In this document: positions 4,324 through 26,989 of the stretch, one piece after another
Layout: every line of letters starts with the position of its first letter
Position numbering within the stretch: the first letter of the stretch is position 1
Assembly (NCBI GenBank): GCA_017548605.1
Contig: JAFYZT010000013.1
Location: forward strand, 1-45,031
Reading direction: 5' to 3'
From: Prevotella sp.
GTDB lineage: Bacteria > Bacteroidota > Bacteroidia > Bacteroidales > Bacteroidaceae
Length of the DNA: 45,031 nt
Position numbers and translations under genes: made by a program
The notes under the pieces: generated by a model
What the model was told of the DNA's origin: nothing
Seen by the model: only the letters and a program-made list of their open reading frames with translations
The model's database searches: none

Positions 4324-6729
4324 ATGAAAAAAATAATCTTCAGTTTCTTGCTGACCTTAATGGTCCTTTGCGTCTATGCTGTGCCTGCCAAGAAAGGTAT
4401 CATAAGAACGCTCACCTTGGCTAACGGAACGACGGTCACCGCCCAACTCGTGGGCGATGAACACGGGCATTACTGGTTGGCTGCCGACGGCAAGGCCTAT
4501 CAAGCCATCGAAGGAGCGGATGTCTTTGAACAGGTGGATGCCCGGCAAGTCATGCTTAGGGCACAAGAAAAAAGAATGAAGGCAAACGCCCGTCGTGGAC
4601 GCAAGATGTCGAAGCATCGCGTTGGCGAATTTGGCGAGTATATCGGCCAAAAGAAAGGACTCATTATCATGGTCAATTTCTCCGATGTGAGTTTCAAAGC
4701 CAGCAACAATAATGCGTTGTATCAACGTATCGCCAACGAAGTGAATTTCAATGAGGGTAATTTCAAAGGCTCGATGTACGACTATTTCCTGGCGCAGAGC
4801 GATGGACAGTTTGAACTGACTTTCGATGTGGTGGGCCCTGTGACGGTGTCGAGACCTCAATCCTATTATGGTGCCAACAACTCACGTGGCGATGATAAGT
4901 ACCCTGCCACGATGGTTATCGAGGCCCTCACTTTGGCCGACGATGAGGTGAACTTCGCCGACTATGACTGGGACGGCGACGGTGAGGTGGACCAGGTGTT
5001 TGTGGTCTATGCCGGTAAGGGCGAGGCTGATGGTGGTGCTTCTTCTACCATCTGGCCCCATGAGTGGCAACTCAGTTCAGCGTCTTATTATGGCGACGGC
5101 ACAGGAGCACAGACGCTCGATGGCGTAATCATCGACACCTATGCCTGTGGTTCCGAACTGAACGGCTATGGTTCTATCGATGGCATTGGCACGATGTGTC
5201 ATGAATTCAGCCATTGTCTGGGTTACCCCGACTTCTACGATACCGATTACAGCGGTGGCCAAGGTATGGGTGCCTGGAGTCTGATGGACGAAGGATGCTA
5301 TAACGGTGATGGATACCAACCCTCGGGCTACACCAGTTATGAACGCTGGTTGGCAGGATGGAAGACACCTATAGAACTGAAGGCTTCGAAGAAAGTTACG
5401 GGCATGAAATCGCTTGTCGATGGTGGCGAGAGTTATATCATCTACAACGAGGGTAACCGCAACGAATACTTCCTGCTCGAAAACCGTCAGAAAACGGGAT
5501 GGGATGCCAGTCTGCCGGGAGCGGGACTGCTTATCCTGCATGTGGACTATGATGCTGACGTGTGGGCTGCCAACGAACCCAATGACGACCCGTCGCACCA
5601 ACGCATGACATGGATTCCTGCCGACAATGAATACCAATATTATGTCTATCAGGGAACACGGTACTATACCTCTGAGGGAATGGCTACTGACACCTATCCC
5701 CAAAACAGCAACAACAGTTTCAGCAAGTCGTCAACACCTGCCGCCAAATTCTACAACAAGAACACCGACGGCACCTATTTTATGAATGCGTCTATTGAGA
5801 ATATTACTCAGCATAAAGGTTCTGACAAGACCATCTCGTTCGACTTCGTCGGTGAGGCGGCTGAAGTGTCGAACCCCGTGTTCTCGCCAAAGGGAGGTGT
5901 ATATACCGAAGCTCAGCAGGTGACCATCACTTGCGAGACGGAAGACGCTACTATCTACTTTACGACCGACGGGTCAACGCCAACAGCTGACAGCACTCCT
6001 TACACCGAACCCATCACGGTGGAGGAGACAACGGTCTTCAAGGCCATCGCCATCCTCGACAATGGGATGAGCGAAGTGGTCTCGGCCCGATACATCATAC
6101 GCAGCGACATGGCATCCGACGTGAAAACCTTCAAACTGGTGAATACGCTCGACGAGATGGTCAGTGGAGAGCGTTATGTCATCGCATGCGGCAAAAAGCA
6201 AAAGGCGGCAGGTGTCTTGAATACTGACGCAAAAAATCCCTATTTCAACCCCGTTAGTGTTTCTGTTGAAGACGACGTGGTGACCATCACCGACGATGTG
6301 ATGGTGTTCTTTGTTGACGGTGTAGGGTCGGAATGGACGCTCATGAACGATGAGGGCCAGTTCCTCTACGCTACGGATGTCAAGAGATTGGCTTTCTCCG
6401 ACGAAGAGCAGATATGGACGTTGGCTAACGATTATACGAATGACAATACGGCGGGCGTGGGCATGTCCTTTGATTCCTTTGGCACCATACTCTACAACAG
6501 TGGGTCGCCGCGTTTCACCACTTACACCTCCGATCCTACCAAGGTGATGCTCGTAGCTCATCTCTATAAGGCGTATGTGGTTCCTGAAGAGACGGGTATC
6601 ACGGTTGTGGCCAAAGAGGAAACACCTGCTAGTGACATTGTCTATGATCTGCAAGGACGAAGGGTGACAGCCACCAGTCTTCCCAAGGGTATCTATATCA
6701 TTGGTGGTAGGAAGGTTGTCGTTCAATAA
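4324..6729 (+). CDS. Secreted M6-family metalloprotease with chitobiase-like and T9SS-like tail domains
   Basis: 801 residues. Signal peptide about 1-20. The catalytic region (about 110-490) has the zinc site HEFSH at 293-297 and a nearby Asp in GYPDFYD, as in immune-inhibitor-A (M6) peptidases. DWDGDGEVD at 215-223 is a typical calcium-binding Asp loop. Residues about 518-595 resemble the CHB_HEX_C_1 fold (FTTDGSTPTADSTPY). About 605-755 is an unassigned beta domain. The final 30 residues (VYDLQGRRV ... KGIYIIGGRKVVVQ) match tails of two other secreted proteins in this window and look like a type IX secretion C-terminal signal. It has its own promoter at 4230 and is followed 22 bp later by the esterase gene. 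Role: extracellular or surface protein degradation; target unknown. Confidence 0.85.
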   Translation: MKKIIFSFLLTLMVLCVYAVPAKKGIIRTLTLANGTTVTAQLVGDEHGHYWLAADGKAYQAIEGADVFEQVDARQVMLRAQEKRMKANARRGRKMSKHRVGEFGEYIGQKKGLIIMVNFSDVSFKASNNNALYQRIANEVNFNEGNFKGSMYDYFLAQSDGQFELTFDVVGPVTVSRPQSYYGANNSRGDDKYPATMVIEALTLADDEVNFADYDWDGDGEVDQVFVVYAGKGEADGGASSTIWPHEWQLSSASYYGDGTGAQTLDGVIIDTYACGSELNGYGSIDGIGTMCHEFSHCLGYPDFYDTDYSGGQGMGAWSLMDEGCYNGDGYQPSGYTSYERWLAGWKTPIELKASKKVTGMKSLVDGGESYIIYNEGNRNEYFLLENRQKTGWDASLPGAGLLILHVDYDADVWAANEPNDDPSHQRMTWIPADNEYQYYVYQGTRYYTSEGMATDTYPQNSNNSFSKSSTPAAKFYNKNTDGTYFMNASIENITQHKGSDKTISFDFVGEAAEVSNPVFSPKGGVYTEAQQVTITCETEDATIYFTTDGSTPTADSTPYTEPITVEETTVFKAIAILDNGMSEVVSARYIIRSDMASDVKTFKLVNTLDEMVSGERYVIACGKKQKAAGVLNTDAKNPYFNPVSVSVEDDVVTITDDVMVFFVDGVGSEWTLMNDEGQFLYATDVKRLAFSDEEQIWTLANDYTNDNTAGVGMSFDSFGTILYNSGSPRFTTYTSDPTKVMLVAHLYKAYVVPEETGITVVAKEETPASDIVYDLQGRRVTATSLPKGIYIIGGRKVVVQ

Positions 6730-6751
6730 TCCGGGAAGAACAGCAGCGTAT

Positions 6752-7753
6752 ATGGAAAACAGTTATATCAAACAGTTTCCCGACATCATGGCGGGCAAGA
6801 AAGTCATGTATGTGCATGGCTTTGGCTCGTCTGCGGAGTCGGGCACGGTACACCGCCTCCGTGAGGTGCTGCCCGAGGCCACTATCATCGCCGAGGATGT
6901 ACCGCTGCACCCGCAAGAAGCCATCGACATGTTGCGGAGGCTATGTGAGGAACAACAGCCTGACCTTATTGTGGGCACGTCGATGGGAGGCATGTACACG
7001 GAGATGCTCTATGGCTACGACCGTATCATGATTAATCCTGCACTCGCCATCGGTGACACCATGGTGAGTCACGGGCTGACGGGCCAGCAGCATTTCTTCA
7101 GTCCTCGTAAAGATGGCGTACAGGATTTCATTGTCACCAAGGGATTGGTGAAGGAGTACAAGGACATTACCAAGCTGAATTTCCTGGGAGTGAATGATGA
7201 AGAGCGGGGTAGGGTAATCGGCCTTTTCGGCGACAACGACGATCTGGTGGACACCTACGAACTGTTCAGTGAACACTATCCCACGGCCATCCGTTTCCAT
7301 GGTGCCCACCGTATGGACGACCAGTCGTTCATGCACGCCGTGCTGCCTGTGATACGATGGATGGACGACCGGCAGGAAGGGCGTGAGCGTGAAAAGGTAT
7401 TCATCGCCACCAATGCGCTCATCGATCGTCGGGGTATGGCAGAGGCCAGTTCACAAAAGGCTTTCCGCCGGTTGATAGAGCATTATGACGTGTATATCGT
7501 GGCTCCCGCTCCGCGTTCAATGGATGATGGAACGGAACAAATGAAGACGACGATAGCCTGGGCTGACGAATATATCAATGTGCCGGCATACAACCATGTG
7601 CTCTTCACCAACCAACCACAACTGCTCCTGGGCGATTTCTTCATCACCACCCAGCCATGTGACAATTTCATGGGTACGGTCATCCCTTATCGTAGCGACA
7701 CCTTCAAGACTTGGGAGGAAATCATCACGTATTTTGACAGAATAACACGTTAA
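6752..7753 (+). CDS. YqiA/YcfP-like esterase fused to a degenerate HAD/nucleotidase-like domain
   Basis: 333 residues from the ATG at 6752; an in-frame ATG at 6701 lies inside the upstream gene and is rejected. Residues 17-210 are a small alpha/beta hydrolase of the YqiA/UPF0227 kind: VMYVHGFGSS near the N terminus, the nucleophile elbow GTSMGG, an Asp in FGDNDDLVD and a His in FHGAHRM, a complete Ser-Asp-His triad. The last about 115 residues resemble the C-type 5'(3')-deoxyribonucleotidase (HAD) fold, with VAPAPRS at motif II and LLGDFFITTQP where the family has GDYLIDD. However, the expected DxD nucleophile motif reads ATNALID, so this half is probably not a phosphatase. Substrate unknown. 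Confidence 0.75.
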   Translation: MENSYIKQFPDIMAGKKVMYVHGFGSSAESGTVHRLREVLPEATIIAEDVPLHPQEAIDMLRRLCEEQQPDLIVGTSMGGMYTEMLYGYDRIMINPALAIGDTMVSHGLTGQQHFFSPRKDGVQDFIVTKGLVKEYKDITKLNFLGVNDEERGRVIGLFGDNDDLVDTYELFSEHYPTAIRFHGAHRMDDQSFMHAVLPVIRWMDDRQEGREREKVFIATNALIDRRGMAEASSQKAFRRLIEHYDVYIVAPAPRSMDDGTEQMKTTIAWADEYINVPAYNHVLFTNQPQLLLGDFFITTQPCDNFMGTVIPYRSDTFKTWEEIITYFDRITR

Positions 7754-16315: not shown

Positions 16316-17404
16316 TTAAACAAACTCTTCTCCCAACTGTATCTGCACCTCGTTTACGTATTTGCGAATCATCGCCGATGAATCACCTTTCTTGCAGATA
16401 AACAGGATGTTGTCTTCCTCGGCCACGATAAATCCTTCCAGACCGTTGAACACACCCAGACGACCTTCTGGCAATTTGATGATGTTGTCGCGGCAGTCGT
16501 CCATGATGACGTGCGAGTCGAGCACCACATTGTCGCCTTCCTGTTTGCTCAAAGCTTCGTAAATGGAATGCCAGGTGCCCATGTCAGCCCAACCGAAGTT
16601 GCAATGCAGCACATACACATTTTCGCTGTTTTCAAGGACGCATTTGTCCATCGAGATGTTGGGATAGGCGGGGAAATGCTCGTGCACATAATCGTGCTCC
16701 TCGCTTACTGACAGTTGGATGTCGTCCTTGTCAATGGGTCGGAACACCATGGGGAAGTTACGGGCGAAACAATCGGTGAAGGTCTTCACATTGGCCAGGA
16801 AAATGCCGGTGTTCCAATAGAACTCACCGCTCTCCATGAACACACGGGCGAAGTCACGTTCCGGTTTTTCCGTGAACGATTTCACATGGTACATCCCTTT
16901 GTGGGGAGCGGCCTCGCCTATCTGGATGTAGCCATAGCCGGGCTCAGGACGTGTGGGCGTGATGCCCACCGCCACAAGCTCGTTGTGGTCAGCCACGAAG
17001 TCCATCGCTCCCGTGATGTCGCTTAAGAAGACGTCCACGTTGAGCACAGCTTGGTCAGAGGGTGTCACGATGACACATGCCTCCGGGCACTGTTTCTTGA
17101 TGCGATAACAAGCCCATGCCACGCTCGGTGCTGTGTTACGGTTCACGGGCTCGGCAAGGATATTGTCGGTAGATACTTCAGGCAGCTGCTCGGCCACTGT
17201 CGGTTCGTATTCGTGGTTGGTACACACGAAGAAGTTCTCTTTGGGGATAAACTTGGCGAAGTGGTCGAATGTCTGTTGCAACTGGGTACGTCCTGTACCG
17301 AAGAAATCTATGAATTGTTTGGGATTATTTTGCCGGCTGCAGGGCCATAGCCTTTTTCCTTTTCCGCCGGCGAGAATGACGCAGTAGTATTGTTGTTTGT
17401 TCAT
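16316..17404 (-). CDS. manC: Mannose-1-phosphate guanylyltransferase
   Basis: 362 residues, the short single-domain form without a fused phosphomannose isomerase. The nucleotidyltransferase signature GGKGKRLWPCSRQNNPKQF starts at residue 13. Other motifs are VTPSDQ, GYGYIQIG and a FTEKP segment for sugar and metal binding. It makes GDP-mannose from mannose-1-phosphate and GTP for cell-surface glycans. It stands alone, convergent with the HIT gene. Upstream of the start TATCTTCG at about 17435 could be a weak -7 box. Confidence 0.94.
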   Translation of the reverse strand: MNKQQYYCVILAGGKGKRLWPCSRQNNPKQFIDFFGTGRTQLQQTFDHFAKFIPKENFFVCTNHEYEPTVAEQLPEVSTDNILAEPVNRNTAPSVAWACYRIKKQCPEACVIVTPSDQAVLNVDVFLSDITGAMDFVADHNELVAVGITPTRPEPGYGYIQIGEAAPHKGMYHVKSFTEKPERDFARVFMESGEFYWNTGIFLANVKTFTDCFARNFPMVFRPIDKDDIQLSVSEEHDYVHEHFPAYPNISMDKCVLENSENVYVLHCNFGWADMGTWHSIYEALSKQEGDNVVLDSHVIMDDCRDNIIKLPEGRLGVFNGLEGFIVAEEDNILFICKKGDSSAMIRKYVNEVQIQLGEEFV

Positions 17405-17523
17405 GAATAGTCCATTTAGGCTTTCAGAGTACGAAGATACGAATAATAAACGACAGAAACAAGTTTTTAGTATTTATTTATGACAAATAAACAAATAATT
17501 CCACATTTTTGCGATTACCATCC

Positions 17524-17587
17524 CTCAACGTTCAATGTTCAACCTTCCACATTAAATCTTCCACGTTCCACGTTCAATGTTCAACGT
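17524..17587. repeat. CAACGTTCAATGTTCAAC-type repeat
   Basis: About six irregular 10-mers of the ACGTTCAATGTTC type, reverse complement of the tract at 2741-2783. Confidence 0.7.
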
Positions 17588-17644
17588 ATGAGTGTGTAGA
17601 TCGTCAAACTACGACTCCCCTCTTCTTCCAAAGCATACTAACTA

Positions 17645-17680
17645 TTCCCCTCCTTTTCCAAAGGAGGGGCAGGGGTGGTT
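17645..17680. repeat. GC-rich palindromic repeat
   Basis: CCCCTCCTTTTCCAAAGGAGGGG stem followed by CAGGGGTGGTT. It is the same family as 11232, 16221 and 33572, here not beside any stop codon. Confidence 0.7.
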
Positions 17681-17705
17681 TGTCGAATAATGTCCTTACC
17701 TCTTT

Positions 17706-17748
17706 TAACCTTCAATGTTCAACCTTCAACCTTCAACGTTCAATGTAT
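17706..17748. repeat. CCTTCAATGTTCAACCTTCAAC-type repeat
   Basis: Four irregular 10-mers of the same family as 17524-17587, 120 bp further on. Confidence 0.65.
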
Positions 17749-17869
17749 GAGCGAGTGGTTTGTCTAACAATGTCCCTCCCTCTTTTAATCTTCCTCGTTC
17801 CCCTCCTCCCTTTAATCTTTTAATTTTTTAATCTTCCCTTTACTTTTTTTCCTTTTTACCCTTCAAAAA

Positions 17870-17900
17870 TTTGCAATTTCGGAAAATAGTTGTACCTTTG
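17870..17900 (+). promoter_or_regulatory. Promoter of tRNA-Leu
   Basis: TTTG at 17870-17873 and TACCTTTG at 17893-17900 with a 19-base spacer, a textbook Bacteroidetes promoter, 13 bp ahead of the tRNA. Confidence 0.8.
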
Positions 17901-17913
17901 CACCGCTTTTGAA

Positions 17914-17995
17914 GCCCAGATGGCGGAATCGGTAGACGCGCTGGTCTCAAACACCAGTGGGGCAACCCGTGCCGGTTCGACCCCGGCTCTGGGTA
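17914..17995 (+). tRNA. tRNA-Leu (anticodon CAA)
   Basis: The acceptor stem GCCCAGA pairs with TCTGGGT (one G-U) and the discriminator is A. The anticodon stem CTGGT/ACCAG encloses CTCAAAC, giving anticodon CAA for UUG. A class II variable arm (TGGGGCAACCCGT) and a T arm GCCGG-TTCGACC-CCGGC are present. CCA is not encoded. The defence island begins right behind it, and tRNA genes are common integrase targets. Confidence 0.95.
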
Positions 17996-18002
17996 CTAGA
18001 AA

Positions 18003-18043
18003 CACCTTGTAAGTCGTTGACTTACAAGGTGCTTTCTTTTTTT
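18003..18043 (+). terminator. Terminator of tRNA-Leu
   Basis: Perfect 13-bp stem CACCTTGTAAGTC / GACTTACAAGGTG with a GTT loop, followed by CTTTCTTTTTTT. Confidence 0.9.
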
Positions 18044-18071
18044 CTAGGGTGTAAAAAGGTGTTAAGTTTTT

Positions 18072-19763
18072 TTATCCATGATACAGGTTTTCCAGTTCTT
18101 CAAATGTTGTATTAATGAAAGTGTCATTAATCATTCCGACAGTACTGATCATCTGATAATCATCAGACAACTTATGATGGAATGATAATGTAAAAGCAAG
18201 ACGTATGTCATCATTGACTTCATCCACGCCTTCCAGTTGCTTGACGACGCTTCCTCTTATTGTTTGAATACTCTTTATTTCATAGACATCGCGGATACCC
18301 GTACCTTTGAAATATGGGATGAAAAAATGCAGATTATGCAATGCTATTGTTGATGGGAACTTCGCCCCTGTGTAATATAACTGGGCACAGCCGTTTTCGA
18401 AATCCTCATAGTAGCCTTTACGGTTGCTTGGTTTGACAAGTCCCACTAAAACTCTGTCACCAACTTCTATAAAAGCGCCCTTCTGTGGAATAACTTTTGA
18501 TACAGTCGTTGACGATTTGGTCTCAATCAGTTCCTTGATAAACTTCTCCAACAACGCCCTATTGCGTTCATCCTTAGGACGCAAAGGGAATGCCCCGATG
18601 TTCACCTCGCCAATCGTCTTATAGAACTTTGCCACCTCCACATCAGCAGGTTCACCGTCGCCAGGAAACAATATGTATCCGCCTATCACCTCTTTCTTTA
18701 GCACATCCGACGGATATTCCTTATAATAGATGGCGTCTCGGTAGCGGTGCATCTGATTGATAGCATCATCGGGCGGCGTGTCCACATGGTTCACCTTATC
18801 TGCAATCCTGTATTTCGCATCAAAGAGATAGGTCATCCTCATGCCTTTCTGCATATCGTCCTTCGTCAGTTGCAACACGATGTCCGGCTTCTGCGGAACG
18901 GTAGGAGCCACCAGATTCTCCATGCTGATACTATCATCCTCTTTCTCCGAATGTTTCGGATTATAGACAAGTTCCGCCAACTCTACACCGTCTTTCTTAA
19001 AAAGGATACTTGAATGTTCGCCTTTCCCTAATTCCCAAGTAAAGACACCGTTCATCTCCATACGGTTGCGATAATCTACATCTTCGTCCTTGATACCCAA
19101 CTGCTCCTTCACAATGTGGCTTACCTCAATAAAGCACCAAATCTCATAAAGTGTGGCTATATCTTTCGATTGCAGGCGGTAGATACCATCGTTCAATGAA
19201 TATGCACGACGAAGCAAGTTCCACGTCCTGTATATTTGACTATAGCCTGTTGCTTTCTGCAGTACGAGGCTCTCTTGATTCAGTCCCTTAAACCGGCCTA
19301 CCGTTCTGAAGAAAGGATTGCGTTGCAGATACTTCAAAGTAGCCTGCATCTCGTCCATCTCCTTCTTCATCACGTCCGATGTGTTCTTGATTGCTTCAAT
19401 GCGTTTTTTCAGTGCTTCATATTTGGCTGTTATCTGCCCCAAGGCATATTTCATGAATCGGTTCTCCTGGGTATCATTAGATTGTATCTGTTCTTCTACC
19501 CGATACTGATGGGCAGGCTCCTTTCTGTGTTCCGCCAGTTCATTCTCTATATTCGACGGCACACGCTTCAGTTTGTCAGCCCTCAGATAGGCCTCATAGC
19601 CACGAAGCCGATGACGGGGACGCTCAATGATATTTCTGCAAGCCTTGATAAACTTCTGCTGTTCGCCCTTAAACACACTCCACCAAATAATTTCCTGCGT
19701 CTCGCCCTTCGTATCAGGTGTAAAGCCATGAAAAGTGCGACGCATATAGTCGAGCGACAACAT
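18072..19763 (-). CDS. DUF2357 / PD-(D/E)XK nuclease, C-terminal part of a frameshifted gene (McrC-like)
   Basis: 563 residues. It continues, in another frame, the 161-residue product encoded just upstream (19790-20275). The reading frame is open before its ATG and reads EDIVEDIEEEYRM, the usual DUF2357 continuation, so translation from the ATG at 19763 alone would miss the N-terminal domain. A helical region (about 80-145) precedes a nuclease core with PD at 293-294 and DAK at 315-317, then the conserved NQMHRYRDAI helix: a PD-(D/E)XK site as in McrC-type and LlaJI-like partners. It is expected to cut DNA under control of the McrB-like ATPase. Last gene of the mcrB-fic-nuclease operon. If the frameshift is real and uncorrected, the nuclease is inactive. 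Confidence 0.75.
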   Translation of the reverse strand: MLSLDYMRRTFHGFTPDTKGETQEIIWWSVFKGEQQKFIKACRNIIERPRHRLRGYEAYLRADKLKRVPSNIENELAEHRKEPAHQYRVEEQIQSNDTQENRFMKYALGQITAKYEALKKRIEAIKNTSDVMKKEMDEMQATLKYLQRNPFFRTVGRFKGLNQESLVLQKATGYSQIYRTWNLLRRAYSLNDGIYRLQSKDIATLYEIWCFIEVSHIVKEQLGIKDEDVDYRNRMEMNGVFTWELGKGEHSSILFKKDGVELAELVYNPKHSEKEDDSISMENLVAPTVPQKPDIVLQLTKDDMQKGMRMTYLFDAKYRIADKVNHVDTPPDDAINQMHRYRDAIYYKEYPSDVLKKEVIGGYILFPGDGEPADVEVAKFYKTIGEVNIGAFPLRPKDERNRALLEKFIKELIETKSSTTVSKVIPQKGAFIEVGDRVLVGLVKPSNRKGYYEDFENGCAQLYYTGAKFPSTIALHNLHFFIPYFKGTGIRDVYEIKSIQTIRGSVVKQLEGVDEVNDDIRLAFTLSFHHKLSDDYQMISTVGMINDTFINTTFEELENLYHG

Positions 19764-19789
19764 ACGGTATTCCTCCTCAATGTCCTCAA

Positions 19790-19795
19790 CTATAT
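19790..19795 (-). other. Frameshift site in the DUF2357 nuclease gene
   Basis: The coding strand reads AAG AAG ATA TAG; removing one TA (plus strand 19791-19794 is TATA) restores AAG AAG ATA GTT GAG GAC, that is KKIVEDIEEEYRM, joining both parts into one frame of about 730 residues. It could be a mutation, a slippage-based switch, or an assembly error. Confidence 0.7.
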
Positions 19796-20275
19796 CTTCT
19801 TCCAGTGTTCGTGATAGTTCAGTTTTGTGCTCAGTACCTCATAACCAAACGTAAAGCGCCTTTTGTCCGTCCCAACCTGATAGACAAAGTTCAGTTCACT
19901 CTTACCGATGTCATTGCCATAGTTGATATAGCCTGCAAGGGTATGGCCACGAAACGAAAAGCGGTCATTGTCGTTTTGCAGTTCAGAGCCGAACTGCGCA
20001 TGATCCACATGCTTCTTGAACTCCACCCATATCGGATAGTCCGTATTATCAAAGAAGATAGCTGGTGCCTGTTCTCCGCACGTTACTAATTGTCGTCCAT
20101 TTACATCTACTGACTCAACATCCTCAGACCAAGTGTATGCAGACATCAGATTCTTTTCGCCCACATTCCGCTTTGCCTTATTCCAGATGCCGTCGAACTT
20201 CGTACATTCAACGTACATCGTGAAATCCTGATGTCGTATCGTCAGCAGATCCATCTCGTTTCTTTTCATAACCAC
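19790..20275 (-). CDS. DUF2357 nuclease, N-terminal part of a frameshifted gene
   Basis: 161 residues, ending in HWKKI at a premature TAG. The content matches the N-terminal domain of DUF2357 proteins: APAIFFDNTDYPIWVEF, then the GYINYGNDIGKSELNF block and FGYEVLSTKLNYHEHW, which in intact relatives continues directly into an acidic DIEEEY segment. That segment is present downstream in another frame. It starts 44 bp after the fic stop on the same strand. Alone it has no nuclease residues; it may have served in assembly with the ATPase. The start could also be the ATG two codons later. Confidence 0.7.
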   Translation of the reverse strand: MVMKRNEMDLLTIRHQDFTMYVECTKFDGIWNKAKRNVGEKNLMSAYTWSEDVESVDVNGRQLVTCGEQAPAIFFDNTDYPIWVEFKKHVDHAQFGSELQNDNDRFSFRGHTLAGYINYGNDIGKSELNFVYQVGTDKRRFTFGYEVLSTKLNYHEHWKKI

Positions 20276-20319
20276 AATTCCTTTACATAACCATAAAAGG
20301 TTGGGTATAAAATGTGGTT

Positions 20320-21402
20320 CTATTTATTCGTTCGGATCAAGTTTACTTTCCACTCACCGTTTTTTCTTCCACCGATGCGTACGATGTATTTGTTTTCTTG
20401 CAACTTCACCAATTGTTTTTGAATAGAAGTCGCGCTAACGCCAGCGGTTACAGCTATCTGTTTGGTCGTAACCTTTGGGTTATCTAGCATCGCATTGAGA
20501 ATCGTTATTGTAGTTACATTTTTAAATGTGATGAGTTCTCCATCGTACCACCAAACTGCATCAGCCTTCTCACCTATAAACCTCAGATTGTTTTCAATGG
20601 TCTCCTCCATTTGGTGGGAAATATATGTTACGAAGTCACGAGCCTGCTCCAATGTGGCGTGTGCGCCATCTGAGGGAACTGGTCCTACAATCTTATCTGC
20701 CTTACCCAATGCATCAAGATACTGCTTCTTGGTTTTGCTGCGAATCACCAGCATTGGATAGTCATGCTTCGTTAGAATATAGTTCATCAATAAACGGGCT
20801 ATACGACCGTTCCCATCTTCAAACGGGTGGATACGAATATAACGGTAGTGAAACAAGGCTGCCAGTTCTACAGGAGATATTGACTTTTCTGCCTCACCCT
20901 GATTATACCATGCAATCAAATCAGCCATCAGGGCTGGAGTTTCCTCTGGCGATGCATATTCAAAGCGTTCTCCTGACGGCGTAATGACAGAATTAGGGCG
21001 TGTCTTATAACAACCGGCATGAACCACATAACTCGAATTAACACCACCAGGCAATTGCCTATAGACTATATAGTCTTCTCGCAGCATAGTCTGATGAAGA
21101 GTACGGATAAAAGACTCTGTCAAAGGCTTCTCTTTGATGCCTGCCTCTTCCTGCATCATCTTCAGGCAGACATTATGCGCCTTCATCTCTTCCAAGTCTT
21201 TCATATTGGCTTCACCAACAACACGACCAAACATCAACAAGAGTTCTGTTTGGCCATACGTCAGAGTATTACCCTCAATATGGTTGCTGTTGTAATTGAA
21301 CTCCAGCATAAACTTCTGGTTCAATCGACGTGCGTCCTCCTCTTTCAGTGGTTGAACGCTCTGCCATTCCCGATATAACTCTTCTATCTTTCCCATACAC
21401 AT
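20320..21402 (-). CDS. Fic family protein (AMP-transferase) with C-terminal helix-turn-helix
   Basis: 360 residues. The active-site motif HPFEDGNGRIAR begins at His192 and is complete. The N-terminal helix carries SNHIEG at 39-44, fitting the (S/T)xxxE(G/N) inhibitory motif of class II Fic proteins, so activity should be self-repressed until relief. The beta-hairpin flap SSYVVHAGCYKTRPNSVITP region is present. The C-terminal about 60 residues look like a winged helix (TTKQIAVTAGVSATSIQKQLVKL). Fic proteins usually transfer AMP from ATP to Ser, Thr or Tyr hydroxyls of target proteins. It begins 9 bp after the mcrB-like stop and precedes the nuclease gene by 44 bp, so it is part of the restriction operon; its target is unknown. 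Confidence 0.9.
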   Translation of the reverse strand: MCMGKIEELYREWQSVQPLKEEDARRLNQKFMLEFNYNSNHIEGNTLTYGQTELLLMFGRVVGEANMKDLEEMKAHNVCLKMMQEEAGIKEKPLTESFIRTLHQTMLREDYIVYRQLPGGVNSSYVVHAGCYKTRPNSVITPSGERFEYASPEETPALMADLIAWYNQGEAEKSISPVELAALFHYRYIRIHPFEDGNGRIARLLMNYILTKHDYPMLVIRSKTKKQYLDALGKADKIVGPVPSDGAHATLEQARDFVTYISHQMEETIENNLRFIGEKADAVWWYDGELITFKNVTTITILNAMLDNPKVTTKQIAVTAGVSATSIQKQLVKLQENKYIVRIGGRKNGEWKVNLIRTNK

Positions 21403-21411
21403 TTATTAATC

Positions 21412-23157
21412 TTAGCTCCAGAAACTGGTATAGCCGCTTTCTAGCCGTTTCTTCATCTCAGCCAGTTTAGCCAACGAAACGGAATATTCCTTCTCAGCCT
21501 CATCCTTCTTGGCAGAATAGTCTTTGCCTGATACGGCCTTCAGTTGTAATGTAACTGTTGTGGTAAGCCCTTCCAACAGATTACCAATCTTCGTTTCGTC
21601 ACCTTCTATGCGTGACAGAATCTTCATGCTCGTTATTTCGTCCAGCGCACGGGCTATCACACAGTTCTCGTCTAACTCATTTCCGTCCTTATCCTTATTA
21701 TACGGCAGATTGTTCACCACATAAAGCAGGAACTCGTTCCTGGTACGATAAGCCACCTTAAACGGCGTACCCTCCAACTGCATATTCACAGCCTCTAAGT
21801 AGTCCAGCGCTGTATCACACACATCCTTATTGGTGTTATAGATATCCACGCCCTCAACAGCCGTTCCTATCAGGTTCCCTGCTTCCAATTTGCCTATCTG
21901 CTCATGTTGTGATTCCAAACCGCCACGTAGATCCACCTCATTCATCTCAATTGTCATAGCCCTGTCAAGCACTTTACGAGAGAACGAGAACGTTGTCTCA
22001 TCCATATTCACCGTACCCACAACAATCAGGTTCTGTGGAATGCAGATACCACCTTCAAGGAATCTGTTGCGGATATTGTCGTCATCAGTCAATTCGCTTG
22101 TCAACACACGATACCAATCCTCTTTGCTCTTTTTCAGTATAGGGTCAGTAGTGATATAGCCTTCCGAATCTGCCTTACGACTCTCCACCACACTCAGATA
22201 CTCTGCGAAATACTGCTCCACAGGAGCCAGATTCATTTCGTCCAAGCAGAGGAAATACGGCACATCAGGATTCTCCCATGCCTTTGCCACAAACTTCAAG
22301 AAATCACCTGCCACAAACACTGGAGTGCCACTAACACGACTCACATAGCCAATCAACTCACTCGAGTCATGCCAGTTCGGCTTTACCTGCACCATCTCAA
22401 AGTTCTTCGGATGATTATTACCATATTCCTCATCTCCTTCCTGCCAAAAAGCCTTAGCCAATTCCCTCACAATCCTGCTCTTTCCTGTTCCAGAGATTCC
22501 CGCGAGCAAAAGGAACGGCTTGGATTTGATGGCAGTAATATAGGGACGATATGGAAGATTAGATGCAATAACCTTTACAATAGAATATATTATAGGATTA
22601 AATATCTTCTGGACTTTCAACTCTTTTGCTATTTCTTTTTTAACGCCACCAGTAATCCGCAAATATGTATCAATTATCTTATCAAGATCCTTTTGGATTT
22701 GTTGATAATCCATATTGTCAGTCCAATCATAGACTTTGTAAACATACGATGAACTGTATTTCTTTATTCCCGTATCAGATGTTTCATAATCCCATTCTAT
22801 GAAAGCATCTTCTATCGTCTTTTTATCATCAACCTCAGAACCCCAAAGAAGATCGGGTCGTTTATTAGCACTAACGCCATATGCTAATACTATCTTTTTA
22901 ACTTCTATGTTGTTCTTATTTTTTTGTTGAAACTCTGGTGTTCCGTAAAAAAGCAAAACAGGATAAATGCCCTTTTGTGTTTCTTGGCCTTCTGCACAAT
23001 ATGATATCCAAGGTATCTTAGAAATATTACCAGTCATACCTATACTTGCCTTTACAGAAAGACCACGATAAGTAGATTCTAAACTTTTTCGTTCAAAATC
23101 TTTTTTCTCTCTATGCTCCCACATTGAAGCGACAAGACTTTCGAGATTATATTTCAT
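21412..23157 (-). CDS. McrB-like AAA+ restriction ATPase with MrcB_N domain
   Basis: 581 residues. The N-terminal half (about 20-170) resembles the MrcB_N/DUF3578 sensor domain (NISKIPWISYCAEGQ, GIYPVLLFY). The AAA+ module has Walker A GISGTGKS (220-227), Walker B YFLCLDEMNLAPVEQYF, and sensor-I-like IVVGTVNMDE followed by LDRAMTIEM, matching the McrB signature NxxD. In McrBC systems this subunit binds modified DNA, translocates, and activates the nuclease partner, here the DUF2357 protein. First gene of the operon. The sequence is AT-richer than neighbouring housekeeping genes, as expected for an acquired island. No clear -7 box was found directly upstream. Confidence 0.88.
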   Translation of the reverse strand: MKYNLESLVASMWEHREKKDFERKSLESTYRGLSVKASIGMTGNISKIPWISYCAEGQETQKGIYPVLLFYGTPEFQQKNKNNIEVKKIVLAYGVSANKRPDLLWGSEVDDKKTIEDAFIEWDYETSDTGIKKYSSSYVYKVYDWTDNMDYQQIQKDLDKIIDTYLRITGGVKKEIAKELKVQKIFNPIIYSIVKVIASNLPYRPYITAIKSKPFLLLAGISGTGKSRIVRELAKAFWQEGDEEYGNNHPKNFEMVQVKPNWHDSSELIGYVSRVSGTPVFVAGDFLKFVAKAWENPDVPYFLCLDEMNLAPVEQYFAEYLSVVESRKADSEGYITTDPILKKSKEDWYRVLTSELTDDDNIRNRFLEGGICIPQNLIVVGTVNMDETTFSFSRKVLDRAMTIEMNEVDLRGGLESQHEQIGKLEAGNLIGTAVEGVDIYNTNKDVCDTALDYLEAVNMQLEGTPFKVAYRTRNEFLLYVVNNLPYNKDKDGNELDENCVIARALDEITSMKILSRIEGDETKIGNLLEGLTTTVTLQLKAVSGKDYSAKKDEAEKEYSVSLAKLAEMKKRLESGYTSFWS

Positions 23158-23938
23158 ACTTTGCTATATTTCTATTTGTTTTTACAAAGACCTTCAAAAA
23201 ACATCGCCAATAAATCCTTATCAGAAATAGTTAATTTGGCATTATCTATTTTAATATTATCGTTTTTTGAGTTACCCACTAACAACTTTGCAGTTATCCA
23301 CGAAGTGTATTGGAGTTACCCGCAAACTCATAAATAACGTCTATTTACTTTTTTATTGCATCATCTAATTATCTACATATATGTGACAACAAGCTTAAAA
23401 CGTTCAAATAGTAATTCTCAGCAATAAACTACTGTTATTCAAATCTTCGAGAGACCGTCATGTCGGTAACGCCCATTTGTTCCGCAAGTCAACAGTTAGT
23501 AAAATTGCTTATCCGCCAAAATCCCCCTGATTCTATTTTGGCAATTCTTTTTTTATGCTTTTTGCTATTTATGTGCAAAGATAAAAATATTTTGTTAAAC
23601 GACCTACAGTTAGGGTGATAAAAAATATTTGATTTTCAGTAGGTTTAGGTGCTCTCTTTTGCTATTAATACGCAATATGGGCTCAACTGATTATCAAATA
23701 TCGTAAGGCATTTATGCTGGCGAGAGAAAAGTATTTTTCTCTTGGCCAGCAAGAAACATTTGTCCTAAATTGAGTGTTGGAAGGCTGTTGATGGCATCTT
23801 CCTTCAACTTGTCAACGGATCGGGTATATTTCTCGGTGTGTTTCATACCGCTATAGCCGAGGATGTGCCACCGTCTTGATGTTTTAACCACTTATTCACT
23901 TGTTCTTGGATAGTTAAGGATAGTTAGGAAGAAATGCC
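23158..23938. other. AT-rich region with gene remnants upstream of the mcrB-like gene
   Basis: About 780 bp with no intact gene. It contains an integrase fragment (23712-23891) and a minus-strand open stretch of 47 codons at 23172-23315, without ATG at its start, whose end reads DNAKLTISDKDLLAMFFEGL; this may be the tail of a lost gene. GAGTTACCC occurs twice about 40 bp apart (about 23270 and 23313). Nothing else was recognised. Confidence 0.5.
23712..23891 (-). pseudogene. C-terminal remnant of a tyrosine recombinase/integrase
   Basis: A 59-codon open stretch without start. It reads HILGYSGMKHTEKYTRSVD and continues KLKEDAINSLPTL before ending in TAA. The pattern HxLGYSxxxxTxxYT matches the last catalytic box (H-x-L-G-[HY] ... 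Tyr) of phage-type integrases, and a short tail is normal after it. The upstream part, with the catalytic Arg residues, is missing and an in-frame stop precedes it. It points to past integration of this island. Confidence 0.65.
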
Positions 23939-23946
23939 TATCTTTG
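23939..23946 (+). promoter_or_regulatory. -7 promoter element before the orphan gene
   Basis: TATCTTTG at 23939-23946, 42 bp ahead of the ATG at 23989. No good TTTG lies at the -33 distance. Confidence 0.5.
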
Positions 23947-23988
23947 CATCGGCAAATAGAATTGTTTTGTGTGATATATATTATACCC

Positions 23989-24570
23989 ATGTTTATTTTC
24001 AAACGAAAAAAGGAAAAACAAAAAGAAAAGATTGCGCCAGTAGCAGAGCCGATGATAGATGACCTCAGCTATATACAAGAGATAAAACATCTATCTGGAA
24101 AGGTTGGAATCGTGTTGTGGCAACAGTATGATGTCCTATTGGCGACACAGAAATATGGTTGGGAAACAATGGTTGATTTTGCTGCTTATTTGGAAACGGC
24201 TGATATTTTCAAAATTGACAGCATCGCCGTCGCAGATATGATTAACGAGCCATCCACGGAGTTGGTTCATGTTTACAATCAATCCAAAGTTGGTCTCAAT
24301 AAGTTCGATAAGTTAACGGAAGAAAGAGGTGTGCTGAGTATCGCTGGATATAGCAGCACATTGAAAGATTCTATAAAAATAGTATGGTTCAACCAGACGA
24401 GAGTTCTGAGGGTCTTTACAAAGCTTGACGATGAAACGCTCATCACAAAATATGTAGAAACTGTCATCAGAAGAACCTTTGGCACCGATGATGCCATGAA
24501 ATTGGCAAAGCCAAATAGGGCTGAAGCCATGCCAAACACCAAGGTGGAACTTATCTATGATGATTACTAG
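23989..24570 (+). CDS. Hypothetical protein in the defence island
   Basis: 193 residues from the ATG at 23989; a longer frame starting with TTG at 23944 would overlap the -7 box and is rejected. The N terminus is very basic (FKRKKEKQKEKI), followed by a soluble alpha/beta-looking region with no membrane helix after the first residues. A repeated theme of a roadblock- or profilin-like fold is possible (VWFNQTRVLRVFTKLDDETLITKYVETVI), but I do not recognise the family. It is AT-rich and opposite in direction to the restriction operon, and lies just outside the integrase remnant. Function unknown. Confidence 0.6.
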   Translation: MFIFKRKKEKQKEKIAPVAEPMIDDLSYIQEIKHLSGKVGIVLWQQYDVLLATQKYGWETMVDFAAYLETADIFKIDSIAVADMINEPSTELVHVYNQSKVGLNKFDKLTEERGVLSIAGYSSTLKDSIKIVWFNQTRVLRVFTKLDDETLITKYVETVIRRTFGTDDAMKLAKPNRAEAMPNTKVELIYDDY

Positions 24571-24703
24571 ATATTCAGTCTCTCTATATTATTATAAAAA
24601 CCAAGTGACACCCCATCTAGCCAAAAAATACTGCGTTACCGGCAAACGCAGTGAACTAAAGCGTATTCTGTTCGATAGAACCACGATCTTTTGGGATGAC
24701 TGA
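24560..24703 (+). CDS. Possible 47-residue small protein
   Basis: An ATG at 24560 overlaps the end of the preceding gene in another frame and opens 47 codons to TGA at 24701: basic, Tyr-rich at the start (YSVSLYYYKNQ), ending TTIFWDD. No ribosome-binding site or homology is evident. It could equally be a chance frame or the rest of a decayed gene. Confidence 0.2.
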   Translation: MITRYSVSLYYYKNQVTPHLAKKYCVTGKRSELKRILFDRTTIFWDD

Positions 24704-24766
24704 AGAAAAACGTCATCTTTGCAAGGGCTGTTTCTTATTTTTGTTTGTAAGTAATAGAATCTGTGC

Positions 24767-26989
24767 TTATTTGACGAGCACTTTCTTTCCGTCGATGAAA
24801 TAAAGGCCATGGGTCGGTATGCCGTGTACTCTTCGTCCATCGAGCATAAACACGCCCTTCCGTGGCATCTGGTCTTCATCGTAAACGTCGGCAATACCCG
24901 CTGCCTTTCGTTCCAGTACCAGTTCGAGTCCTTTCTTGGCATCTACCTTTCCATGCCCGAATTTCTCCGGTGCTGCCTCGGTAAACTCATCAGTATGGCA
25001 GCATTGCACGAGGATGTCTCTCACATCATCGACGGTGAGCGTAGGATCGGCCTCGAGCCAGAGCGCGATGGTACCAGCCACGGCGGGTGCCGATTGCGAG
25101 GTGCCCTCCTCACCGGAATAATGGAATCCGTTCCACATCATATCTTCACGCGGTTCACCCATTTCTTCTATCTCGACGTCATCGTCCACTTCGCCGGGAT
25201 CCTCTTCATGCAACAAGGTATAGTGGCTGACGGCCGACACGATGTTCACACCCGGTGCGCAAACCATGGGGCACTGTATGCCGTTGAAGCCCATACCGTA
25301 ACTGCTGAACTCGGCGATGTCGCCCAATGTGTTCTTCTCATCCAGAACAGGTTCCTTTCTCAGTGTCCGATTGTTGAGGTTGGCGCAATAGGCACCCACG
25401 CTGATGACATGCGGAGCTGTGGCCCAATCACTCATACTCATGCCACGTTCTCCTTCGGCATAACCGTCGCGGTCAAACGAAGATACGGAAACGTCGAAGA
25501 GGTGAAGCACGGTACCCTGTTTGCTGCCGACCGTCAGTTCCAACTGATATTTTTCATCCAGATTACCCGAGTAATAGCATGCGAGATGCGTTCCTCCCTC
25601 TTCATTCACGACTCCGATGCGCAATTCTCCGCTGAATCCTTTGGCCAGATCCTCGACATCACTGCTCTTGACATTGAGCAGTTCGCCGCATGTGGCATCC
25701 AAGAGGGGCGACAGCCACACCGTAGTCCATGAGGGCTCACCATTGGACCCGCCATTGTCGTCATCACTATCATCAAAAGCATCGTTGCCGTAACTATCAT
25801 CATTGACATCGTCATCATCACCGTCATCATCACCGTCGTCATCATCGTCATCATCATTACCATCCTGATGAACGAGCGATACACGCATCACGAGCGGGCT
25901 GTCATCATAGGTATAACCATCCATGCGCGAAAAATCGGAACTCATCATGGTGCGCAAAGTGTCGTTGTCACTTTCAAAGGTCTTTTTCAGGTAGTTGGGA
26001 TCTTCCCCCTCGTTGCCAACCGACAACACGACGGGTATGCCCTGTTGGCAGAGCGTTTCTAGCGCCTCTTGCATCGTACCTTGCCCGTTGTGCGAGCCAT
26101 TGTTGATGCCCTGACTGATATTGACCACAAGAGGCTGTTGGTGTTGTTGTGCATAATGACTGATGAATGCCAGCGAATGAAATATGCCTGACGTTGAAAG
26201 TAACATATCAATGGGCATGTTATCTTCCATTTCCAACCTCGCGGAATCTTCGGTACAGCACAGCACGATGTCGGCATCAGGGGCGATGCCTCCGAATCCC
26301 TGTGGCGACCGAGTACCAGCAGCGATACATCCTGTATGTGTGCCGTGGTACTGCGTCTCGATATCGGTGGTGAGCGACGCAATCTGCTCGGGCGAATCAT
26401 AGACAGCACCAGGCAGGGTCATGTCACCGATGTTTACCCCCTCGCCATCTTTGGCGAAAGGCATATATACCGCTTTTATGCGCGTGCGCCCCTGTTCATC
26501 GAGGAAGGCGGGGTGCTGGAAGTCGAAGCCCATATCCATGACACATACAGTAACTCCCTTGCCTGTATAGGCATGGTCGCCGACCGTACCTTGGGTACCA
26601 TCAATCAAGTTCGACCGCATCTCCTGCCGCGTCACATCACTCATCAGTTTGGGTCGCATTGTATGCGAGTCGATGCGAATGACACCTGGCAAGCGCTGCA
26701 CCATTGGCAGAGCATTGACAGGGATTGTTGCCGACACTAACTGTCCTAAACGTGCATGCAAGGTGATACCTGCTGCCTTAAGTTGTGTGATTGTCGCGTC
26801 GGCATTTGCCTCGTCAATTTTCAGCACCACCTCAATGCTCTTTACTGCGGTATCCGCTGCCCTTGCCGTCTTTTGTTGCGATGTTTGCAGCATCATGCGT
26901 GCATTCAGCGTCAGTTTGCTCTTTTCTTGAGACATGACGGCTACACAGACAATGAGAAATGCGATAAATGTGGGTATTCGTTTCTTCAT
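24767..26989 (-). CDS. Secreted S8 (subtilisin-like) serine protease with Asp-rich insert
   Basis: 740 residues. Signal peptide about 1-20, then a propeptide-like region (about 45-110). The catalytic triad is complete: Asp152 (VCVMDMGFDF), His215 (YHGTHTG) and Ser631 (GTSQSAPAVAG). The oxyanion Asn is in SVGNEGED. Between about 377 and 411 lies a run of Asp with scattered Gly and Asn, coded by GAT/GAC repeats. The final about 30 residues (MLDGRRV ... HGLYFIDGKKVLVK) match the tails of the M6 protease and the 1300-residue protein, suggesting type IX export. A -7-like TACCTTTG lies at 27027-27034. It probably degrades extracellular protein. Confidence 0.9.
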   Translation of the reverse strand: MKKRIPTFIAFLIVCVAVMSQEKSKLTLNARMMLQTSQQKTARAADTAVKSIEVVLKIDEANADATITQLKAAGITLHARLGQLVSATIPVNALPMVQRLPGVIRIDSHTMRPKLMSDVTRQEMRSNLIDGTQGTVGDHAYTGKGVTVCVMDMGFDFQHPAFLDEQGRTRIKAVYMPFAKDGEGVNIGDMTLPGAVYDSPEQIASLTTDIETQYHGTHTGCIAAGTRSPQGFGGIAPDADIVLCCTEDSARLEMEDNMPIDMLLSTSGIFHSLAFISHYAQQHQQPLVVNISQGINNGSHNGQGTMQEALETLCQQGIPVVLSVGNEGEDPNYLKKTFESDNDTLRTMMSSDFSRMDGYTYDDSPLVMRVSLVHQDGNDDDDDDDGDDDGDDDDVNDDSYGNDAFDDSDDDNGGSNGEPSWTTVWLSPLLDATCGELLNVKSSDVEDLAKGFSGELRIGVVNEEGGTHLACYYSGNLDEKYQLELTVGSKQGTVLHLFDVSVSSFDRDGYAEGERGMSMSDWATAPHVISVGAYCANLNNRTLRKEPVLDEKNTLGDIAEFSSYGMGFNGIQCPMVCAPGVNIVSAVSHYTLLHEEDPGEVDDDVEIEEMGEPREDMMWNGFHYSGEEGTSQSAPAVAGTIALWLEADPTLTVDDVRDILVQCCHTDEFTEAAPEKFGHGKVDAKKGLELVLERKAAGIADVYDEDQMPRKGVFMLDGRRVHGIPTHGLYFIDGKKVLVK
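25757..25861. repeat. (GAT/GAC)n microsatellite-like tract inside the S8 protease gene
   Basis: Plus strand is rich in TCATCATCATCACCGTC units, coding for an Asp-dominated stretch of about 35 residues. Trinucleotide length change would keep the frame. Confidence 0.75.

Follow-up and report, generated by a model that had tools for sequence, protein, structure and literature searches.

Judged by sequence comparison, the Fic protein encoded between the mcrB-like and mcrC-like genes of a Prevotella sp. is exchangeable cargo of an NxD-type McrBC operon, being neither specific to this strain nor a fixed component of the system. The operon is found on contig JAFYZT010000013.1 of assembly GCA_017548605.1, of which positions 1 to 45,031 were analysed and are here called the window, and it runs on the minus strand from 23157 to 18072 in the order mcrB-like gene, fic and the gene for a McrC-like nuclease with DUF2357 and PD-(D/E)XK domains, with gaps of 9 bp between mcrB and fic and of 44 bp between fic and the nuclease gene. 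This arrangement had been proposed in a preliminary description made from the letters alone, and its three genes, common strand and spacing are confirmed by the open reading frames (ORFs) and their Pfam domains. We consider it moderately likely that this is a McrBC-type restriction operon in which Fic would act as an embedded second-line (abortive) effector, housed in an exchangeable slot.

The contents of the slot were surveyed by scanning genome contigs with a McrC alignment, which gave 369 relatives; the best 80 loci were retained, and six without a resolvable mcrB upstream were set aside before counting. The slot is filled in 22 of the 74 resolvable loci and empty in 52, where empty means that no ORF of at least 70 residues starts in the gap and includes L233, with a gap of 573 bp and a shortened mcrC. 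With families assigned by Pfam for representatives and by homology to these for the remainder, the occupants are Fic (8), RhuM (5), Schlafen-AlbA/HATPase (3), KilA-N (2, one of them a 78-residue fragment), YhcG (1) and unassigned proteins of about 200 residues (3), so that 19 of the 22 belong to five families. The eight Fics comprise four with a winged helix, three with another C-terminal domain (CTD) and one of SoFic type. The cargo is on the operon strand, at -26 to 71 bp from mcrB and -29 to 262 bp from mcrC. Representatives of Fic, RhuM and YhcG furthermore match the PADLOC candidate families PDC-S04, S05 and S02, respectively, and PDC families derive from guilt-by-embedding (Payne et al. 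2024, as cited in PMC12988326). The three unassigned proteins (L131:2945-3520, L130:3859-4458 and L129:5122-5754) are 191-210 residues long and have no Pfam match, and those of L131 and L129 have no PADLOC match either; those of L131 and L130 are homologous.

A Fic occupies the slot in nine other genomes (L188, L195, L216, L232, L159, L161, L228, L237 and G384/L137), among them L188 and L216 with intact mcrB-fic-mcrC operons. The clade of the window Fic accounts for L188, L216 and L232 and other Fic lineages for the six further loci, and because both the same clade and other lineages recur in this position, the arrangement in the window seems to be more than chance. Insertion in this strain only had been suggested by a family sample of 151 genomes, in which the four closest relatives (G023, G048, G052 and G071) have mcrB directly beside mcrC without a Fic, but this notion was reversed by a genus sample together with the 80-locus scan. 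The genus sample comprised 299 genomes, 41 of them with a McrB match, and the loci fetched from 20 of these 41 have ten empty slots, four Fics, one SoFic-type protein, one RhuM, one KilA-N and three unassigned proteins, 19 of the 20 being contained in the best-80 set. Among 29 genus McrB loci besides the window's own, taken with 1.5-kb flanks, Fic matches are likewise found in L090, L091, L095 and L109, and weakly in L108. The search for conserved mcrB-fic-DUF2357 neighbourhoods that the preliminary description had called for thus shows that Fic recurs (8 of 74 loci) without being a fixed component. Similarly, of the two circumstances held there to tell against the proposal, mcrB directly beside the DUF2357 gene is indeed what 52 of the relatives show, whereas confinement of Fic to this strain is contradicted. 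Since most relatives have no cargo and other genes take the same slot, the idea that Fic is a third component of the system is not supported.

Cargo is exchanged on nearly identical backbones. Among L159, L160, L161 and L216 the mcrC DNA is 94.6-96.7% identical over 1.6 kb, and the slots of these loci hold a CTD-type Fic, nothing, a CTD-type Fic and a winged-helix Fic, respectively. L188 and L228 agree at 95.5% of positions in the kilobase at the 3' end of mcrB and at 94.9% in mcrC; their Fic types differ and the match between the two fic genes is confined to the first 658 nucleotides, at 77%. When L216 is aligned with L161, the two methyltransferases and the gene that follows them are 96-100% identical; within mcrB the value drops to 42%, at the beginning of fic it is 99%, and in the part encoding the Fic C-terminus it is 17-47%, gaps counted. 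Over the first 1.5 kb of mcrC identity amounts to 86-100%, and for the C-terminal domain of McrC to about a third. Recombination has therefore exchanged modules within a near-identical cassette. Furthermore, the McrB of L188, which is 86% identical to that of the window over residues 203-581, matches only the motor part of the protein, and recognition domains have therefore been exchanged on one and the same motor. In the Fics of L159, L161 and L228 the winged helix is swapped for a different, longer C-terminal domain; the matches listed in a PDB search with the L161 Fic are all Fic proteins.

A quick Fic tree joins the window Fic to those of L188, L216 and L232 (support 99), every one a slot Fic; the slot Fics of CTD type form a group with one BREX-neighbour Fic and one further sequence (98), and the Fic of L195 falls within a clade of 44 rows whose other members are non-slot Fics (100). 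The SoFic type of L237 and L137 has another architecture. Because the window clade, L195 and the SoFic type have separate placements or architecture, at least three entries of Fic into the slot can safely be counted from these data and four are likely, the count of three resting on the non-slot rows of the tree. The tree omits the partial sequences L087 and L088 and the duplicates L119 and L240, and its rows are cut to 300 residues except for L137 and L237. CTD-type Fics also lie between hsdM and hsdS in L153 and next to pglZ and brxL in L155; those of L154, L158 and L276 have no such neighbours. One further CTD-type Fic (L269:3-8085) is flanked on one side by a gene of 1290 residues that matches nSTAND weakly and on the other by a GHKL ATPase/methyltransferase-like pair, the whole being possibly another defence operon.

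Class II Fic AMP-transferases are characterized by the catalytic motif HxFx(D/E)GNGRxxR and by an inhibitory motif, (S/T)xxxE(G/N), N-terminal to the Fic core. The window Fic has both, as HPFEDGNGRIAR and SNHIEGN, respectively. Across 12 aligned Fics, that of the window counted, HPFEDGNGRIAR is invariant, as are N40, H41, E43, G44 and N45, and S39 is conserved in 11 of the 12. From the SNHIEGN motif we take the protein to belong to class II, that is, to be N-terminally inhibited, and it is most likely a self-inhibited AMP-transferase; with its MarR/HTH domain also present, the earlier portrayal of a self-inhibited class II Fic with a winged helix between the restriction pair is sustained. In PADLOC the protein matches PDC-S04 (5.7e-37) and SoFic (5.1e-33), the latter mediating abortive infection through AMPylation (PMC12249575) and resembling it in being a Fic AMP-transferase with a C-terminal domain. 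Indeed the slots of L237 and L137 hold a SoFic-type protein, but the window Fic itself is closer to BT_2513 (3cuc, E 5.9e-100), its nearest solved structure, and scores 32.8 bits against the NCBIfam SoFic equivalog, far below the cut-off of 550 bits. The genome carrying the window has five Fic matches in all.

The restriction pair is of McrBC type, as had been proposed, in that a McrB-like AAA+ protein (MrcB_N/AAA_5) is found with a protein having DUF2357 and PDDEXK_7 domains. The whole McrB matches the structure of E. coli McrB (6ut6, E 7.4e-24) and PADLOC PDC-M26A (2.2e-38), and it scores 91.9 bits against the NCBIfam McrB equivalog, under its cut-off of 637 bits. The motif VNMDE places it in the NxD branch, where NxD, usually followed by E or D, replaces the NxxD of E. 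coli McrB (PMC11090510), and NxD is present in 70 of 77 related McrB ORF pieces, the other seven being without a detected motif. Residues 17-173 match the 5-methylcytosine (5mC)-binding domain of E. coli McrB (3ssc, phmmer E 1.5e-16), a homology that gives the protein a putative 5mC-reading domain, as in type IV restriction, and suggests that the window copy would read 5mC-modified DNA. The modification-dependent reading advanced beforehand accordingly fits the window copy; the relatives are mostly associated with methyltransferases. A C5-cytosine methyltransferase is found upstream of mcrB, on the same strand and within 6.5 kb, in 61 of the 66 related loci whose upstream sequence extends 1.2 kb or more from mcrB, the methyltransferase calls, like those of Vsr below, being made by BLAST to seeds; this points to a LlaJI-like layout rather than to a stand-alone type IV system. 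The inference of 5mC reading is tempered by L160 and L172, which share the 5mC-binding-type domain and yet have a C5 methyltransferase upstream by the same BLAST approach.

LlaJI of Lactococcus, as described in part of PMC1459862, likewise combines a McrB-like GTPase with a PD-(D/E)XK subunit and resembles the relatives in its C5-cytosine methyltransferase(s); no embedded cargo is mentioned in that description of its four genes, and the likeness here is one of gene content as described. The window operon differs from it in having no C5 methyltransferase and in the 5mC-binding type of its McrB N-terminus. With E. coli McrBC it shares this N-terminal domain, the AAA+ motor and the DUF2357/PD-(D/E)XK nuclease, but it has NxD and not NxxD, an additional, predicted PUA/EVE/YTH-like domain at the nuclease C-terminus, and the embedded Fic. 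Further likenesses, in the motor motif (NxD followed by E), in DNA methyltransferase association and in the extra McrC domain, are to the NxD-branch methyltransferase-associated McrBC systems and CoCoNuTs (PMC11090510), to which L216, with a weak response-regulator match below cut-off, also bears some resemblance. Unlike CoCoNuTs, the window genes show no HEPN or other partner nuclease in their Pfam results, no coiled-coil search having been made, and the word Fic is absent from the main text of PMC11090510.

Genes embedded in restriction-modification (R-M) operons have precedents in the sections of the literature consulted. Fic/Doc and RhuM genes have been described there, along with PrrC/RloC, and multi-level defence has been proposed by analogy with PrrC (PMC3710099), and DarTG2 is found inside an hsd operon whose hsdS-hsdR junction is a potential recombination hotspot (PMC12255303). 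The window fic, as a single gene between restriction genes that recurs in relatives, agrees with these systems, where a toxin-like or effector gene likewise varies between relatives (PMC3710099, PMC12255303); it differs from them in that the hosts are McrB and McrC rather than type I or Hma, and goes beyond them in the exchange on backbones of about 95% identity and in the swapping of the Fic C-terminal domain within the slot. Thus, while Fic and RhuM inside R-M operons were already known, the McrB/McrC slot and the cargo exchange on near-identical backbones are new. No literature joining McrB, DUF2357 and Fic was found in a search that left supplements and preprints outside, none of the matches listed for Fic and McrBC was on topic by its title or the start of its abstract, and the portion of PMC5675462 available gives no link between Fic and an R-M operon.

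Mechanistically, we infer that fic would be co-transcribed with the genes for the NxD-branch McrB-like motor and the PD-(D/E)XK McrC-like nuclease, which in relatives form a LlaJI-like operon with C5-methyltransferase(s), and that the defence gene would sit in the exchangeable slot that separates the motor gene from the nuclease gene. The Fic AMP-transferase, inhibited by the N-terminal glutamate motif that it carries, would be silent in healthy cells; phage infection might then perturb the cell or the restriction complex and so release Fic, which would AMPylate putative host targets and stop growth. By analogy, Fic would back up McrBC as PrrC backs up a type I system. PrrC demonstrates that a suicide switch can be built into a restriction operon, and McrBC-type systems appear to follow the same principle. 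Among the options raised earlier an abortive response is favoured. That Fic modifies the ATPase or nuclease is less probable, given the unrelated genes found in its place; indeed neither so varied a set of occupants nor the 52 operons having none would be expected if acting on McrB or McrC as an enzyme were a fixed function of the slot. Random cargo, in turn, does not readily explain why a few families recur, several of them matching PADLOC candidate defence families, and this recurrence together with the published embedded genes (PMC3710099, PMC12255303) favours a second-line effector. On a more tentative and rather doubtful extension, the mcrB-mcrC junction would be a dedicated cargo port and the Fic C-terminal domain, be it the winged helix or the CTD that Fics in type I R-M and BREX operons also carry, an adapter to the host defence machine, so that disabling the machine would release the toxin; restriction machines would then be platforms swapping back-up effectors around one self-inhibited AMP-transferase core.

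Several observations weigh against the second-line effector. The 80 loci were ranked by likeness to the McrC of a Fic-bearing operon (L120), and the Fic share of the slots may be inflated as a result, while the majority of operons do without any gene there. Most winged-helix relatives of the window Fic have no neighbouring restriction genes in the flanks that were fetched, some of which stop early at contig ends, the 44-row winged-helix clade has only L195 in the slot as far as these flanks show, and a plasmid-borne Fic relative of 56% (one plasmid) is outside any restriction operon; with winged-helix Fics mostly outside the slot, defence is therefore not implied by Fic type. Moreover, a single entry followed by C-terminal exchange may account for both the window clade and the slot clade of Fic-CTD type, the tree being a quick search with long branches flagged and the careful search unfinished, and a count of tree labels (slot against only two R-M rows) gave 2 changes, no better than shuffles (500/500).

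One alternative is a passenger, that is, a mcrB-mcrC junction that simply tolerates insertions and cargo that is toxin-antitoxin-like, persisting by itself or through co-transcription and contributing nothing to defence. Empty slots, chemically unrelated cargo genes and differing content on near-identical backbones are all as expected for this explanation, and at two of the four window-clade Fics (the window and L138 = L232) the restriction genes are broken and fic is still open. However, the occupants are not random, given the five families and the matches of Fic, RhuM and YhcG to candidate defence families, and at least three Fics among 13 entries would have a P of about 1e-6 if five Fics are taken per assumed 3000 genes, gene number and entries being estimates. 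We therefore regard a passenger as fairly unlikely. A regulator or modifier, with Fic AMPylating McrB, McrC or the methyltransferase, or the winged helix repressing the operon promoter, so as to tune restriction, is suggested by the position of fic inside the operon, by the winged helix of the window-clade Fics and by RptR, a known repressor of an R-M island (PMC12255303). It is made improbable by the unrelated genes in the same slot and the many operons having none, by slot Fics that are otherwise alike but have another domain in place of the winged helix, and by the location of fic, which is internal in the operon and not promoter-proximal. Accidental insertion into a decaying operon of this strain, for which the frame-broken nuclease gene, the missing C5 methyltransferase and the Fic-less closest relatives of the family sample might speak, is contradicted by the nine other genomes with a slot Fic, including the intact L188 and L216 operons, and can hardly be upheld. 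The slot provides natural near-matched pairs, alike in backbone and with unlike cargo or none, that would allow direct measurement of what Fic and the other cargo add to phage defence.

The preliminary description was right about the DUF2357 and PDDEXK_7 domains of the nuclease but not in treating it as one gene, since two ORFs of 161 and 563 residues in different frames make it up and the gene is thus not intact as assembled (Table 1). The first piece covers the equivalent of residues 1 to roughly 154 of intact McrC relatives, and because 67 of the 74 resolvable loci have a single mcrC ORF, of 706-758 residues, the window gene is frame-broken in this assembly. Elsewhere mcrC is split in two at varying positions in five of the 74 loci (L165, L172, L189, L232 and L234), which may reflect decay, error or switching, and is shortened in two (L233, 539 residues; L219, 619 residues, at a contig end). 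A programmed frameshift was considered and rejected, as the junction, read by eye, has no classic slippery heptamer and the splits of relatives are at other positions; the split is in keeping with a broken gene or with an assembly error, and reinitiation at the ATG of the 563-residue ORF may occur. With the nuclease frame-broken and no C5 methyltransferase in the operon, the restriction arm of the window is probably inactive, being off or damaged. The KPD and DAK of the nuclease motifs are invariant in an alignment of 13 McrC relatives. No convincing solved relative of McrC was found by sequence, the best match (E 0.024) being a proteasome subunit. The McrC C-terminal domain recurs at the C-terminus of C5-cytosine methyltransferases, in L019 and in that of the window's own genome on contig C20, and also ends six further ORFs (L020, L021, L024, L025, L028 and L035).

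Table 1. Features of the mcrB-fic-mcrC operon and the adjoining tRNA gene, in window coordinates
Feature	Position	Strand	Basis or remark
McrB-like AAA+ subunit, 581 aa	21412..23157	-	MrcB_N (E 1.3e-6), AAA_5 (1.2e-5)
McrB N-terminal domain, aa 17-173	22639..23109	-	Pfam MrcB_N; phmmer match to 3ssc
McrB nucleoside triphosphatase motif GISGTGKS	22477-22500	-	
McrB nucleoside triphosphatase motif FLCLDEMN	22231-22254	-	
McrB NxD motif VNMDE, aa 383-387	21997-22011	-	
Fic protein, 360 aa, between mcrB and mcrC	20320..21402	-	Pfam Fic 4.7e-22
Fic inhibitory-type motif SNHIEGN, aa 39-45	21268..21288	-	alignment of Fics
Fic catalytic motif HPFEDGNGRIAR, aa 192-203	20794..20829	-	alignment of Fics
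Fic winged helix (MarR_2/HTH_24), aa 297-343	20374..20514	-	Pfam
McrC-like nuclease, first piece, 161 aa	19790..20275	-	N-terminal region and start of DUF2357
McrC-like nuclease, second piece, 563 aa	18072..19763	-	remaining DUF2357 and PDDEXK_7
PDDEXK_7 domain of second nuclease piece	18654-19154	-	E 9.1e-32
Nuclease motif KPDIVLQ	18870-18890	-	
Nuclease motif FDAKYR	18807-18824	-	
McrC C-terminal domain, 139 aa	18075..18491	-	predicted PUA/EVE/YTH-like fold
tRNA-Leu(caa)	17914..17996	+	convergent with nuclease gene, end 75 bp from nuclease stop

As to further neighbours, a Vsr-like gene is found within 4.5 kb downstream in 31 of the 74 related loci. No C5 methyltransferase is found beside the window operon, other methyltransferase families not having been searched, and the genome, which is 92% complete, has a single PF00145 match, on another contig. 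In L188 a gene for an EcoRII-like endonuclease and a C5 methyltransferase (4728-7063) lie directly upstream of the intact mcrB-fic-mcrC-vsr operon. In L160 (3492-5191) and L195 (847-2543) two paired genes, one for an AAA_15/AAA_21 ATPase and one with DUF3226, are found upstream of the operon and resemble OLD/TOPRIM-type two-gene defence modules. Among 72,556 plasmid records no McrC covering 80% of the query was found and three distant DUF2357 matches were obtained, of which one (L279) adjoins a C5 methyltransferase and an AAA ATPase without an insert and another (L280) has a 339-residue gene on the opposite strand between the ATPase and DUF2357 genes.

The operon is set in a stretch of low guanine plus cytosine content, the 1-kb blocks from 17001 to 25000 having 34-46% and the flanking blocks mostly 47-57%, with the exception of the last two blocks of the window (42-45%). 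Upstream of and divergent from the operon, with an AT-rich stretch adjoining, is a plus-strand ORF of 208 residues (23944-24570) without a Pfam match. At the other end tRNA-Leu(caa) forms the boundary of the low-GC operon; it was considered as an integration site and rejected, as no att pair was shown and no tRNA repeat of at least 12 bases is found elsewhere in the window. Just past this tRNA is a terminator-like hairpin at 18003-18031, a 12-base piece of which recurs at 30535, the only such recurrence in the window.

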